A stretch of DNA of 64,000 nt from Armatimonadota bacterium. Its GTDB lineage: Bacteria > Armatimonadota > Fimbriimonadia > Fimbriimonadales > Fimbriimonadaceae. Below, piece after piece: positions 41,117 to 58,653 of this stretch. The notes under the pieces were generated by a model, which made no database searches, had not been told where the DNA came from, and saw only the letters and a list, made by a program, of their open reading frames with translations. The position numbers and the translations under genes are program-made. Location of the stretch: the NCBI GenBank assembly GCA_018268315.1, contig JAFDWU010000001.1, positions 163,280 to 227,279 of the forward strand, written 5' to 3'. Numbering within the stretch: position 1 is the stretch's first letter; each line of letters starts with the position of its first letter.

Positions 41117-41583
41117 GCTACGACATCCACCCGTTTTCCGAATCTCCTGACCGGGAGCTTTGGCTGGGGGGCATTCGGTTTCCGGATGCGCGCCCGCTGG
41201 CGGGTCATTCCGACGCGGACGTGATTCTGCACGCGGTGGTGGATGCTCTGCTTGGTGCGGCGGGGCAAGGGGACATTGGCCAGCACTTTCCGAACACGGA
41301 CGCGCGGTGGAAGGACGCCAGCAGCAGCGCGTTCCTCACCCACGCTGTGCAGCTCATTTCCCGCCTGGGTTGGCGGGTGATGAACATCGATATCGCGGTG
41401 GTGGCGGAGGAGCCGAAGGTGATGCCGCGCGCTCAGGAGATGCGGGAGAAGATCGCGGAGATTGCGGCGATCACCGCGGATCGGGTGAATTTGAAGGCGA
41501 CGACGAACGAGAAGCTGGGCGCGATTGGTCGGGGCGAAGGCATCGCGTGCTTCGCCACGGCGTTACTTCAGAAGTCGTCGTAG
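41095..41583 (+). CDS. ispF: 2-C-methyl-D-erythritol 2,4-cyclodiphosphate synthase
   Basis: 162 residues. Start GTG at 41095 inside ispD. Metal ligands Asp10 and His12 (GYDIHPF) and the GHSDADVILHAVVDALLGA helix are intact, as is the C-terminal ATTNEKLGAIGRGEGI trimer segment. It closes the ring in the non-mevalonate isoprenoid pathway. Its last ten codons plus stop are repeated three more times downstream (42115, 42655, 43699), so this end is copy 1 of a repeat array. Confidence 0.93.
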   Translation: MEFRVGLGYDIHPFSESPDRELWLGGIRFPDARPLAGHSDADVILHAVVDALLGAAGQGDIGQHFPNTDARWKDASSSAFLTHAVQLISRLGWRVMNIDIAVVAEEPKVMPRAQEMREKIAEIAAITADRVNLKATTNEKLGAIGRGEGIACFATALLQKSS

Positions 41584-41589
41584 ACGTCT
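41549..41589 (+). repeat. ispF-end repeat, copy 1 (native ispF 3' end)
   Basis: Contains GACGGCGTTACTTCAGAAG-like core (here CCACGGCGTTACTTCAGAAG), then TCGTCGTAGACGTCT. It encodes the IspF C-terminus FATALLQKSS-stop. ACTTC-A-GAAGT is an 11-bp inverted repeat, and GTAGACGTCTAC-like bases follow the stop. Confidence 0.85.
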
Positions 41590-41607
41590 TAGGTTTGGGA
41601 CACACGA

Positions 41608-42102
41608 ATGGGCCAGATTAGAATGCGGCTTTCCCTCCTCATTATGGCGACGGCCATTGGCTGCCAAAAGAGTAGCCCTCCTGCCACGTTGCCAGTCGGT
41701 CTTGCGACCGTGAGTGGTGTGAGGCTGCGACTGATGAAATATGGAGCTGGGCTATGGATATTCTTTCAGAACAACGGGCGCCGAACGGTTATGCTAAAGC
41801 GCGAGGGGGATGCCTTTGGCAGGATAACCTTCTTCAGGAGAGACTCGGGAAACTGGAAGAGGGTTGAGGAAGTTGATCCGAATTTACGTTTGACAGACTT
41901 GATGGCGGAGCCAGATTCCAACTGGGTAACGCTCAAAACGCGCGATAAGACCATGTGGATGACAGTGCACAACTACACGGGAAACATCCAGCGCGGTGAT
42001 GACATCCGTGTAGATATGAAGCCAGCAATCTTGCCTCACGGTAAAGAAGGGATGGCTCAGTTTCCGCCTCACGAGGTTAGTTTCGAGTGTATTGTCGAAT
42101 AA
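41608..42102 (+). CDS. cassette gene A: small lipoprotein of unknown function
   Basis: 164 residues from ATG 41608; ATG 41623 gives a tidier lipoprotein signal (MRLSLLIMATAIGC). Cys19 counting from the first start is the lipobox Cys. The mature part is beta-rich and contains Asn/Arg-rich strands (LWIFFQNNGRRTVML). It begins 19 bases after the first ispF-end repeat. No family recognised, and its sequence is unrelated to the following cassettes. Confidence 0.65.
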   Translation: MGQIRMRLSLLIMATAIGCQKSSPPATLPVGLATVSGVRLRLMKYGAGLWIFFQNNGRRTVMLKREGDAFGRITFFRRDSGNWKRVEEVDPNLRLTDLMAEPDSNWVTLKTRDKTMWMTVHNYTGNIQRGDDIRVDMKPAILPHGKEGMAQFPPHEVSFECIVE

Positions 42103-42114
42103 CGGGGCGCAAAT

Positions 42115-42152
42115 GCTTCGCGACGCTGTTACTTCAGAAGTCGTAAACGTCT
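42115..42152 (+). repeat. ispF-end repeat, copy 2
   Basis: GCTTCGCGACGCTGTTACTTCAGAAGTCGTAAACGTCT, split here as GACGCTGTTACTTCAGAAG and TCGTAAACGTCTACACATTT (which runs on to 42160). Read in the ispF frame it gives FATLLLQKS-stop. The bases after the stop also match copy 4. Confidence 0.85.
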
Positions 42153-42163
42153 ACACATTTGCA

Positions 42164-42634
42164 ATGACTGCAATTGCCATTCTCGGGCTCTTGACGGCTG
42201 GGCACCGCGACACGGTGATCCCGATTGAGAAGTGCCTACGCCTTAAGTGCGACGTAATTCAAGACAGGGGCTACTTGAAGTCCTTCGTCATCAATGTGAA
42301 AAACATCTCAAAGCGCACTCTCGTCGCTGCTGATTTGTCGCATGCTGGGGGGCTTTGGATTGAAAAGGTGAGATACGATGATGGGATAGAGCGTAACTAC
42401 GGATTGAACCATCAACTCAAGCTCGGACCTGGGGAATCGATAAGCACGACAATCCTTGCGGGTGGCTTCAGTGACTTTAAGGGTAGTCATCAAACCGTCC
42501 ACTTTGAATACAGTCAGCCAGACGGATACCAAGTACTTGACCCGCACCACGTGAGGCTAAAGGGAAGTCTGATCTCTAAGAAATACAATCTCACCTATAG
42601 CTCGCAAGGTATCCGAGTGAGCACCGTAAAATGA
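42164..42634 (+). CDS. cassette gene B: small exported protein, paralog of cassette D
   Basis: 156 residues from ATG 42164, chosen because the paralog at 43745 cannot extend further upstream. A short hydrophobic N-terminus (MTAIAILGLLTAGHR) suggests a signal peptide. Shared features with the paralog: TVIPIEKCL, NISKRTLV, YGLNH, ES, FKGSH.TVHFEY, QPDGYQ.LDP, HVRLKG, ISKKY.LTY, GIRVSTVK. Beta-sandwich-like. Function unknown. Confidence 0.7.
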   Translation: MTAIAILGLLTAGHRDTVIPIEKCLRLKCDVIQDRGYLKSFVINVKNISKRTLVAADLSHAGGLWIEKVRYDDGIERNYGLNHQLKLGPGESISTTILAGGFSDFKGSHQTVHFEYSQPDGYQVLDPHHVRLKGSLISKKYNLTYSSQGIRVSTVK

Positions 42635-42654
42635 AAATTGCCACCATGTGGCAA

Positions 42655-42695
42655 GCTTCGCGACGGCGTTACTTCAGAAGCAGTCGTAGACGTCT
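42655..42695 (+). repeat. ispF-end repeat, copy 3
   Basis: GACGGCGTTACTTCAGAAG is identical to the core consensus, followed by CAGTCGTAGACGTCT. In the ispF frame it reads SFATALLQKQS-stop, with an in-frame extra Gln codon relative to copy 1. It lies 18 bases after cassette gene B. Confidence 0.85.
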
Positions 42696-42783
42696 GAACA
42701 TACATCGAGTGCGCGATGCAACCAGATTTAACAGGCACGATATTGGCCCGGCTCAGTTGCCCAAAGTGTATGAAGGGAGTTAG

Positions 42784-43626
42784 TTGTATTTCCTGACCAT
42801 CGCTGTACGCTTGCTTCTGGCTAGAGCCGTTTGGCTATTCCATGCAACTGCAAGCCCCGCGGGCTCGATATGGCTCACTGCGAATACAGTCACCGCAAGT
42901 GAAGTTGCACGGGCGGCGAAGATCCCGCTTCCGAATTCTCAAGGATGGCGTGTTGAAAGGATCATTGCGAACAAAGAAGGCTCCCTTATTGCGGTAACGG
43001 GAAGACAAAAGGAAAGGTCCAGCATTTGGTTTGTCAGCCCGGATGGGTTAAGGGTTGTGGGGCGGGCAGATTTCCGCAACCCGATTTCGGATCCAATTTG
43101 GACTGACAAGTTAACCCTGGTGCTGAATCAGAGCGATGTGCATGGGCAATCTGCTGTGGTGCAGGTCAATAGAGGCACGTCGTGTCGGGTCACTTACACC
43201 CCGCTGCTGTCACACCAAGAAGAAACGCTGCATGCAGCTGAGGCAGTGGAGGTTGTGAACCGCCAGAACCTCAAGCAAACGAGGACTCTTCACGCACCGA
43301 GTGGTTTCAGCTCGGATGCATTCGGCAATCACGCAGGAACCCTTCTCGTCTCCCCGAATGGGAGGGTGATTGCAGTAAATGCACAAAGCGGGTTGCCAGG
43401 AGCAGTCTCCCAGGTGCAATTGTTCGTCATTCAGAGAACAGGGCATGGCTGGAACTCAAACAGCCTCGGGCCGCTGCCACACACAGCTTGGCTTGTAATG
43501 GCGGATCGCTTTCTCGCTGCTCTAAGCAATATGGCAGCTGGTGGTACGTGCGTGGTTTACAATCTAGAAACCTTACGGCCGATCGCGGCGTTCGACGCCG
43601 ACGCGGTTGAGCTCGTAAGTAGGTAG
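42784..43626 (+). CDS. cassette gene C: exported protein, propeller-like
   Basis: 280 residues from TTG 42784, preceded by GGGAG. A long hydrophobic N-terminal stretch (ITVRLLLARAVWLF-like) suggests export. The rest is beta-rich with repeated patterns (IAVTGRQKERSSIWFVSPDG and LLVSPNGRVIAVNAQSG) resembling a WD40/TolB-type propeller. No family named. It follows the third ispF-end repeat by 88 bases. Confidence 0.6.
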   Translation: MYFLTIAVRLLLARAVWLFHATASPAGSIWLTANTVTASEVARAAKIPLPNSQGWRVERIIANKEGSLIAVTGRQKERSSIWFVSPDGLRVVGRADFRNPISDPIWTDKLTLVLNQSDVHGQSAVVQVNRGTSCRVTYTPLLSHQEETLHAAEAVEVVNRQNLKQTRTLHAPSGFSSDAFGNHAGTLLVSPNGRVIAVNAQSGLPGAVSQVQLFVIQRTGHGWNSNSLGPLPHTAWLVMADRFLAALSNMAAGGTCVVYNLETLRPIAAFDADAVELVSR

Positions 43627-43698
43627 CGACCCTGTGAGTGCGGAACGAGTAGCATGGAATCTCAGAGTTAGTGAACAGGAGTATCCTCAAAGCTGATT

Positions 43699-43740
43699 GG
43701 CGACGGCGTTGCTTCAGAAGTCGTAAACGTCTACACATTT
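43699..43740 (+). repeat. ispF-end repeat, copy 4
   Basis: GACGGCGTTGCTTCAGAAG then TCGTAAACGTCTACACATTT. In the ispF frame it reads LATALLQKS-stop. One synonymous change (TTA to TTG) separates its core from copy 3. The downstream bases are identical to those after copy 2. Confidence 0.85.
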
Positions 43741-56327: not shown

Positions 56328-57275
56328 ATGCTTTGGCCTGCCGTTATCATAGCCGCGTGTTCGTACATTCCCAATCTGAATGAGGGCTTTGGGCCCATCG
56401 ACAGCCGCAACCATAGGGCCTTAAGCCTCACCTTCCTACGCTTCAGCCCCTCGGATCGTGTGCTTTCAAATCGCGAAAGAGAGTTCAGTTTTAGAGTTAC
56501 AAGCGCGAACGATTTTCGCCAAGTGCCTGGACTGCTGGAGGACCAGGAGACCGAGCGGCTGGCGTTTAAGTGGAAGCGCGGCTTTGCCAAGGGCGATTTG
56601 GAAGTGGAGGTTCCCTTCCTGTTTCGCGGCGGCGGATTCTTGGACCCGATTATCCTTGGCTGGCACGAGCACATCCTGCACTGGGTCGAGCCGGGCCGGG
56701 CGGAAGCGCCCAGCGGACGCTCGATTGTTGAAGGTCCAGGATTTAGTTTTGGGTCTGCGGGCGGTCTCGGCGATATTTCCGTGTTTTGGAATCAGCGATT
56801 GAACGGGCATTGGTCGTGGTCGTCGGGCGTTAAGGCGCCGACCGGCAACGCGCATACGCTGATGGGCAGCGGGGCGTTTGATGCGGGTCAGATGATGAAG
56901 TATGTGGGGCGATTGGGCAAGGGCTGGTCGTTTCACGGCGAGTTGGGTTTGATCGCTCAAGGCAAGCCGACGGTGCTGCCGGGCGGACGCGGGCTGGTGC
57001 ATCAGGAAGGCATGGCGCTGACGTGGCAGCCGAACTCGCGGGATAACTGGGTGGCTCAGTGGCAGGCGGAGGCTTCGGCGTTGCAGCTTGGCATCCCCGG
57101 CAGCGACGCCACTCACCGGATGTTGGTGTTTGGGTATCAGCGGCGGCTTTCTAATCGTGAAGTGCTGGAGCTCTGCTTTATGGAGGATCGGGACGTCTTT
57201 AACGGCCGCTGGCCGGAGGGTGCGAATATCGCGCCAGACTTCTCGATTCAGGCGGGCATTACGCTTCGCTACTGA
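56328..57275 (+). CDS. DUF3187-like outer-membrane protein
   Basis: 315 residues with a short signal-like start, then strands typical of a beta-barrel (GSAGGLGDISVFWNQRL, GWSFHGELGLIAQG) and a terminal Tyr. NLNEGFGPIDSRNHRALSLTFLRFSP near the start resembles DUF3187, a family of predicted outer-membrane proteins. It diverges from the AbrB-type gene and stands alone. Confidence 0.65.
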   Translation: MLWPAVIIAACSYIPNLNEGFGPIDSRNHRALSLTFLRFSPSDRVLSNREREFSFRVTSANDFRQVPGLLEDQETERLAFKWKRGFAKGDLEVEVPFLFRGGGFLDPIILGWHEHILHWVEPGRAEAPSGRSIVEGPGFSFGSAGGLGDISVFWNQRLNGHWSWSSGVKAPTGNAHTLMGSGAFDAGQMMKYVGRLGKGWSFHGELGLIAQGKPTVLPGGRGLVHQEGMALTWQPNSRDNWVAQWQAEASALQLGIPGSDATHRMLVFGYQRRLSNREVLELCFMEDRDVFNGRWPEGANIAPDFSIQAGITLRY

Positions 57276-57322
57276 TTCGGCTTGGCGCAGCCGATAACGT
57301 AGTGGTAGAATTGCAGACTCGC

Positions 57323-57396
57323 TGCCCGCTCGTCTAATGGCAGGACGACAGGTTCTGGCCCTGTTAATCGAGGTTCGAATCCTTGGCGGGCAGCCA
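57323..57396 (+). tRNA. tRNA-Gln (anticodon CTG)
   Basis: 74 bases: acceptor TGCCCGC/GCGGGCA, anticodon loop TTCTGGC (CTG, reads CAG), T arm GAGGTTCGAATCC, discriminator G and an encoded CCA (57394-57396). Its last 19 bases are repeated twice more downstream (57478, 57576). Confidence 0.95.
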
Positions 57397-57403
57397 AAGT
57401 TTC

Positions 57404-57419
57404 ATTAGCATCAGCTAAT
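57404..57419 (+). terminator. hairpin 1 after tRNA-Gln
   Basis: ATTAGC-ATCA-GCTAAT, a 6-bp stem immediately after the tRNA. It opens the first 100-base repeat unit. Confidence 0.4.
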
Positions 57420-57477
57420 AAACCTGGCTCGCGCGGCACGGATCATTGAAGTCGCGAGCGAAGCGAGAGACGCCAAT

Positions 57478-57496
57478 AATCCTTGGCGGGCAGCCA
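57478..57496 (+). repeat. tRNA-Gln 3'-end repeat, copy 2
   Basis: AATCCTTGGCGGGCAGCCA is identical to the last 19 bases of tRNA-Gln, including CCA. It ends a 100-base unit that contains CACGGATCATTGAAG at 57437-57451. Confidence 0.9.
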
Positions 57497-57500
57497 CTAT

Positions 57501-57519
57501 TGTTGGCCTTTGGCCAACA
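57501..57519 (+). terminator. hairpin 2 after the copy-2 repeat
   Basis: TGTTGGCC-TTT-GGCCAACA, a perfect 8-bp stem. It has the same position in its unit as hairpin 1, but a different sequence. Confidence 0.4.
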
Positions 57520-57575
57520 TATTTGTCTCCCGACACGGATCATTGAAGCTTCGAGCGTCAGCGAGGAGCGCCAAT

Positions 57576-57594
57576 AATCCTTGGCGGGCAGCCA
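57576..57594 (+). repeat. tRNA-Gln 3'-end repeat, copy 3
   Basis: A third AATCCTTGGCGGGCAGCCA. Its unit (97-98 bases) shares CACGGATCATTGAAG (57534-57548) with the preceding unit, at the same offset. Confidence 0.9.
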
Positions 57595-57633
57595 AATTCC
57601 CTTTTGACGTCAGAAGCTATCAGAGCTTGATCC

Positions 57634-58653
57634 TCAGTCTTCGCTCTTAATCCCAGGATGCTCTGGCGAAGCCATCTGTCTTGCCAACTTGAATATCTGG
57701 GACCCAAAGTCTTCAATCTCGCGATGCTTCACATTCGAGGCCATGACCACCGTGAGGTCAAGCGATTGGTTGAAGTACGCCACGGTATCGAAGTATCCAT
57801 TGCCGCCGGCGAAAGCCCAACCGCTGCCGGGCTTCGCGCTCGGGCCATACACATTCGGGAGCCAAAGGCCAAGAAGCTTTTGAGAAAAGACCTTGCCAGG
57901 GGTTCCGACCGCCCGCGCCCACTTTGCGAGATCGCTCATTGTGGAGAGCATGCCGCCGTTCCCCCGCAGATTCCAGCCGGGGCCATCATAGAACCAGAAG
58001 TGATCCAGCGGCGAGCCCCAATCTTCCCCGCCAAGCTCGTAGCCGTGAGTGAGCATTCGGCGACTCCACCGCGGGCGAATATAGCCTATCGAGGGGCAGT
58101 CGGCGGGCCCAAATTCCACTTTGCGCAACTCATCTTCAAACTTGCCATTTGTAATGCGCTCGATGACCATCGCGAGCAGCGAGTAGCCCGAATTTGAATA
58201 CAAATATCCCTTCCCGGGCGGATAGACCAGCTTGCACTGATTGATCTTTTCGAGAAGACCCTCTCGGGTCATCGGCTCGTAGTCATCGCCAAAGATATCT
58301 GGCAGCCCGGCGCGATGCTTCATGACGAGGTCGATGGGCAAGGCGGCTTTGTTGCCTCTCAGCGGCAGGTATTTGCCGAGGGTGTCGCTCGTCGAAAGCC
58401 TCCCTTTGACCACAAGATCCCATAACGCAAGCTGGGCCATGGGCTTTACGATCGAGCCGATATCGACGACCGTCTGGCCAGACCAAGGCACGTTGAGCGC
58501 GCGGTTGGCAAGGCCGAGACCCCGCTCATAGACCGGAACGCCATGAACCTCCACCCGCACGTAAGCTTGGTAACCCTTTGACTCCGCTTGTGCGAGCAGC
58601 GCCGACATATCGGCCTGAGCGGAGAGAGCAACCAAGAGTAATCCAGCGCGCAT
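57634..58653 (-). CDS. class C beta-lactamase-type serine hydrolase
   Basis: 339 residues from ATG 58653, which gives a signal peptide (MRAGLLLVALSAQA). Catalytic Ser67 and Lys70 (GSIVK), Tyr152-Ser-Asn (YSN) and the following GGN-type loop match the serine beta-lactamase/DD-peptidase fold. Whether it hydrolyses beta-lactams or another ester or amide is not decided by sequence. It diverges from a winged-helix regulator, a common arrangement. Confidence 0.85.
   Translation of the reverse strand: MRAGLLLVALSAQADMSALLAQAESKGYQAYVRVEVHGVPVYERGLGLANRALNVPWSGQTVVDIGSIVKPMAQLALWDLVVKGRLSTSDTLGKYLPLRGNKAALPIDLVMKHRAGLPDIFGDDYEPMTREGLLEKINQCKLVYPPGKGYLYSNSGYSLLAMVIERITNGKFEDELRKVEFGPADCPSIGYIRPRWSRRMLTHGYELGGEDWGSPLDHFWFYDGPGWNLRGNGGMLSTMSDLAKWARAVGTPGKVFSQKLLGLWLPNVYGPSAKPGSGWAFAGGNGYFDTVAYFNQSLDLTVVMASNVKHREIEDFGSQIFKLARQMASPEHPGIKSED

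Follow-up and report, generated by a model that had tools for sequence, protein, structure and literature searches.

Tandem tRNA-tailed repeats behind a tRNA-Gln gene of an Armatimonadota bacterium are probably rtT-like RNA hairpins

Why does the end of a tRNA gene recur twice directly behind the gene itself? The question arises in a window of 64,000 nucleotides from an Armatimonadota bacterium (family Fimbriimonadaceae; contig JAFDWU010000001.1, positions 163,280 to 227,279 of the forward strand), where tRNA-Gln(CTG) is followed by two tandem units (Table 1) that an earlier note had read as stacked attachment scars or mini-cassettes. The string AATCCTTGGCGGGCAGCCA, the final 19 nt of this tRNA, occurs at all three places with zero mismatches, bearing out the exact recurrence described in that note. 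Its units of about 98 to 100 bases, each ending in the tRNA tail, were likewise confirmed, with the copies spaced by 100 and 98 bp in accordance with the unit lengths. No further copy of the 19-mer was found within the window, and shuffled sequences contained a mean of 0.01 occurrences, which is the chance expectation.

Table 1. Features of the tRNA-Gln locus, numbered from the first base of the window
Feature	Positions	Strand	Basis
Promoter-like site (TTGGCG, 18 nt, TAGAAT; TG preceding the second hexamer), just 5' of tRNA-Gln	57282-57311	+	Consensus match only
tRNA-Gln(CTG), CCA encoded	57323-57396	+	ARAGORN
Genuine tRNA-Gln tail, 19 nt, source of the repeat	57378-57396	+	
Unit 1, 100 bp	57397-57496	+	
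Unit 1 hairpin A (GTTT.ATTAGC..GCTAAT.AAAC), without a T run	57399-57423	+	Fold
Unit 1 hairpin B: tail copy as 3' arm, its complement as 5' arm, GAGCGAAGCGA tip (57456-57466)	57425-57496	+	Fold
Tail copy 1, 19/19 identical	57478-57496	+	
Unit 2, 98 bp	57497-57594	+	
Unit 2 hairpin A (TGTTGGCC TTT GGCCAACA), terminator-like	57501-57519	+	
Unit 2 hairpin B, GAGCGTCAGCGA tip (57553-57564)	57524-57594	+	Fold
Tail copy 2, 19/19 identical	57576-57594	+	

Each unit folds into two hairpins. Hairpin A stands directly after the CCA and differs in sequence between the units; that of unit 2, being terminator-like, could stop transcription ahead of unit 2. In hairpin B, the 5' arm is an imperfect complement of the tail, and a conserved GA-GC-loop-GC-GA tip lies between the arms. 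The layout given in the earlier note, namely, a differing first hairpin, a shared CACGGATCATTGAAG, and a GC-rich block, was present in full, but the parts that it listed separately belong to one structure: CACGGATCATTG forms the 5' arm opposite the tail copy, with which it pairs, and the GC-rich block makes up the hairpin tip. In unit 1, TGGCTCGCGCGGCACGGATCATTG of the 5' arm pairs with CAATAATCCTTGGCGGGCAGCCA of the tail copy with a mismatch every few pairs. Folded as RNA, the units gave z scores of -3.85 and -3.80, and none of 200 shuffles was as stable for either unit; as DNA, the folding was weaker (z of -2.5 and -1.4, the hairpin of unit 2 being weak).

The two units occur nowhere else in the 2.8-Mb genome. 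Among the 46 tRNA genes scanned there, and neighboring tRNAs aside, only tRNA-Ser(CGA) has another exact downstream tail copy; this copy lies in a 115-bp unit. A weak Rfam match to RtT (18.9 bits) downstream of tRNA-Ser in this genome first pointed to rtT. Behind tRNA-Gln(TTG) lies a similar 5' half that lacks the tail copy, and a candidate 319 bp behind tRNA-Arg(CCT), which mismatches at 2 of 16 positions and shows no clear core, was left uncounted. Behind tRNA-Val (GAC) of this genome, the frame of a small GIY-YIG nuclease starts inside the tRNA and continues past the CCA (L044, 1606-1914), and the same kind of gene is found behind tail copies in one relative (G114).

To our knowledge, the function of the E. 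coli rtT repeats, which have been known for decades, is still not settled, and the open-access literature that we searched contained only passing mentions of rtT. The E. coli units follow the same plan as those of the window, each closed by a 19-nt tRNA tail copy with CCA, and they are annotated as processed RNA. Since the E. coli units carry this annotation and each tail copy in the window is built into a hairpin of the same type, the term attachment scar misses the main feature, and the window units are not plain attachment scars. The core is common to relatives and to E. coli rtT: hairpin B of unit 2 and one E. coli rtT unit have a 15-nt core string, TCGAGCGTCAGCGAG, in common, the longest shared string in 2,000 mononucleotide shuffles being 14. 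A tandem GA motif has been described for RtT (PMC7657543). Traits of RtT found in the window units are the tandem position directly behind a tRNA, the copy of the tRNA 3' end, and the closing helix of 5' arm and tail. Nonetheless, the Rfam model RF00391 had no match in positions 57200-57720 up to an E value of 10, so that we call the units rtT-like rather than filing them as RtT members. Over 291 genomes of the phylum, the model had no match above the Rfam gathering cutoff; its best subthreshold match, found blind in a genome of the same family (27.1 bits; E value, 0.011), lies directly behind tRNA-Ser(CGA) and ends in a 19-nt tail copy. The Gln-type motif was also sought in 84,980 genomes; none of its 74 matches had an upstream tRNA, and they were taken as chance.

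A pattern search combining tip and tail detected units behind tRNA-Ser, -Ala, and -Val in relatives and a displaced one behind tRNA-Gln; since the reversed pattern, used as a control, also gave about 20 matches over the phylum, matches unlinked to a tRNA mean little. From three of the relatives found in this way, we built a covariance model, R1. This model recovered every E. coli rtT copy, although weakly (E values of 0.05 to 0.54), and window unit 1 at 57431-57496 (cmsearch, 14.7 bits; E value, 0.42), a weak match to a model trained on relatives. Unit 2 was absent among the matches listed, and on the tested loci R1 matched only one relative beyond the E. coli copies and unit 1. Over the phylum, R1 matched 24 of the 291 genomes, with units behind Ala, Val, Lys, Arg, Pro, Ser, Gln, and Glu tRNAs. 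A piece of the tail of an upstream tRNA was carried by 21 of 59 examined matches, 35 of the 59 had no tRNA near, and in the sample of match-bearing loci a tail copy lay downstream in 17 of 40 tRNAs and upstream in none; these are not genome-wide rates, as the loci were picked because they held a match.

In 64 aligned matches, every one of the 13 pairs of helix 1 had changes in both partners, and none of 500 shuffles was as good by any measure; fitting the alignment to the structure favors such a signal, but it was lost when the partners were slid by 1 to 3 columns. Furthermore, the 5' arms matched the tail of their own tRNA better than the tails of others (permutation P of 5e-5 for 10 units, not all of them independent). 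Two viral contigs (L222 and L175) carry rtT-type units after prophage ends at tRNA 3' parts, with two units in L222; the remaining matches of the viral-contig scan were mostly coding and were set aside as chance. Copies of the core also lie inside long opposite-strand reading frames in one relative (G109; L335, L343, and L346). The earlier note had extended its logic to the ispF array of the same window (41548-43740), in which the ispF 3' end recurs four times between open reading frames without Pfam matches. This parallel did not hold, as R1 had no match there and the ispF repeats lack the core.

At least some units are tRNA copies broken by the core, as seen in Val, Pro, and Ala copies. The tRNA-Val copy of G019 runs from the anticodon loop into the T-loop (30 of 30 positions), is followed by the core, and resumes for 15 of 15 positions to the CCA. 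In G123 and G125, copies of tRNA-Pro and tRNA-Ala are interrupted at this T-loop site as well; one of the Pro copies spans nearly the entire tRNA, its core being placed in the anticodon stem. In the window units, the sequence 5' of the core is too diverged for a T-arm copy to be read.

In our view, the pair of units probably represents rtT-like RNA hairpins, repeated in tandem and anchored to a tRNA, like those that follow tRNA-Tyr in E. coli. Hairpin B mimics the helix that the acceptor and T stems form in its own tRNA: the tRNA tail from about position 58 to the CCA makes up the 3' strand, a matching complement the 5' strand, and the conserved GA-GC-loop-GC-GA core stands in for the T-loop. 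Such a unit may have arisen when a core came to occupy the T-arm of a tRNA 3' part present downstream as a redundant copy, with tandem duplication following, and the units would be transcribed together with the tRNA. By holding the tail copy folded, the 5' arm might keep it from competing for the 5' acceptor strand of the tRNA, and the CCA-ended helix might let tRNA-processing enzymes free the unit as a small RNA. This tandemly duplicated, tRNA-anchored hairpin is the most likely reading, with its job inferred.

The reading as stacked attachment scars, in which each tail copy is the displaced right end of an element that had integrated at the tRNA 3' end before losing its body, is in our judgment unlikely. 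tRNA tails are classic integration sites, and in relatives long tRNA copies start near the anticodon like attachment blocks, 1.7 to 9.5 kb downstream, some of them core-less, with toxin-antitoxin or Schlafen-type genes between tRNA copies. Specifically, nucleotidyltransferase/HepT and DUF433/DUF5615 genes lie between tRNA-Gln and the unit in G121 and G126, tRNA-Pro of G123 has four to five tail copies with HicBA and DUF433/DUF5615 pairs among them (some DUF5615 and HicB scores being just under the Pfam cutoff), and an SLFN_AlbA_2 gene stands ahead of a core-less tail copy at tRNA-Ser in G126. These stretches may be ordinary islands; at tRNA-Ser of G123, the flanks were not alignable within the genus for an empty-site comparison. 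The window, however, has two units of 98 and 100 bp with a shared core, no cargo between the copies, and no integrase adjoining, the three tyrosine recombinases of the genome (Phage_integrase matches at C1:249888, C1:541272, and C2:574218) all lying away from the units. Besides, a tail-complementary 5' arm is not expected of a scar, and E. coli has an RNA of this architecture. The only integrase of this genome that is not of XerC/XerD size and score lies directly behind tRNA-Sec (C2; L035, 1450-2574). In favor of the reading in the earlier note, the units are not conserved beside this tRNA across relatives, and members of six genera with the identical 19-nt tail have a single copy within 1.5 kb. 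The cassette idea gains some support outside the window, as a few arrays enclose toxin-antitoxin genes; for the window units, which have neither cargo nor an adjoining integrase and show no sign of mobility, it found none. The mechanism proposed in the earlier note is partly right for the relatives and unsupported for the window. A broader version appears rather unlikely: in it, rtT-type hairpins would serve as the sites of a tRNA-anchored cassette system with an integron-like layout, to which both the window units, as empty cassettes, and the E. coli tyrT repeats, as a worn-down form, would belong; if true, the system would collect toxin-antitoxin and other defense genes in relatives.

It seems quite improbable that the units are REP-like palindromes mobilized by a Y1 (RAYT) transposase, an enzyme with a preference for hairpin loops, tRNA T-arms among them. 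Dispersed cores do stand within inverted repeats, such as TTGTGAGCG[core]CGCTCACAA in L336 and GGTGGGCT[core]AGCCCACC in L342, two of them have a Y1_Tnp gene within a few hundred base pairs, and core-interrupted tRNA copies show no target duplication, but a Y1_Tnp match is absent from the window genome (G000) and from the unit-bearing G109, G011, and G001, and the window genome has only two units of this sequence. The copy in L342 (3012-3079; G114), set in a REP-like palindrome, lies about 50 bp behind ispDF and adjoins the Y1 transposase gene. A neutral, functionless tandem duplication of a tRNA 3' fragment with its flanking hairpins is very unlikely: short tandem arrays arise easily, and E. 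coli strains differ in the number of rtT units (3 versus 5), but the tip shared with E. coli and the covariation across relatives argue for selection on the hairpin.

For the preferred reading, that of rtT-like RNA hairpins, the recurrence of one plan behind many different tRNAs of a distant phylum, with arms that track the local tail, indicates that the tail copy is integral to the unit and not an accident of tRNA-Tyr. The T-arm-interrupted tRNA copies suggest how rtT-type units form, and the few toxin-antitoxin arrays connect a question of tRNA processing with gene capture.

Among known systems, integrative elements and islands likewise place direct repeats of a tRNA 3' end behind the intact gene, with cargo between copies in relatives, whereas the window lacks both integrase and cargo, and its copy belongs to a hairpin with a conserved core. 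Integron attC arrays likewise have folded imperfect palindromes at unit ends, and a few relatives have same-strand toxin-antitoxin arrays, which is a resemblance only; no attC box pattern was seen by eye, the three recombinases of the genome were classed as Phage_integrase matches with none assigned to IntI, and most units are empty. On the first two points, we rejected an integron reading of the window. REP/RAYT systems share short palindromes at several places, with a Y1_Tnp gene adjoining two copies in relatives, whereas in the window the tail copies and arms are tRNA-specific and the genome has no Y1_Tnp. Compared with RtT RNA (RF00391), the 178-bp repeats behind E. coli tyrT/tyrV, the window units stand behind tRNA-Gln in a distant taxon, are about half as long, lack the extra inner hairpins, carry a separate hairpin A right after the CCA, and score under the Rfam gathering level. 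Like RtT RNA, however, they lie in tandem right behind a tRNA, and they have the 19-nt tail with CCA at the unit end, a 5' arm pairing with that tail, and a GAGCGNNAGCGAG tip.
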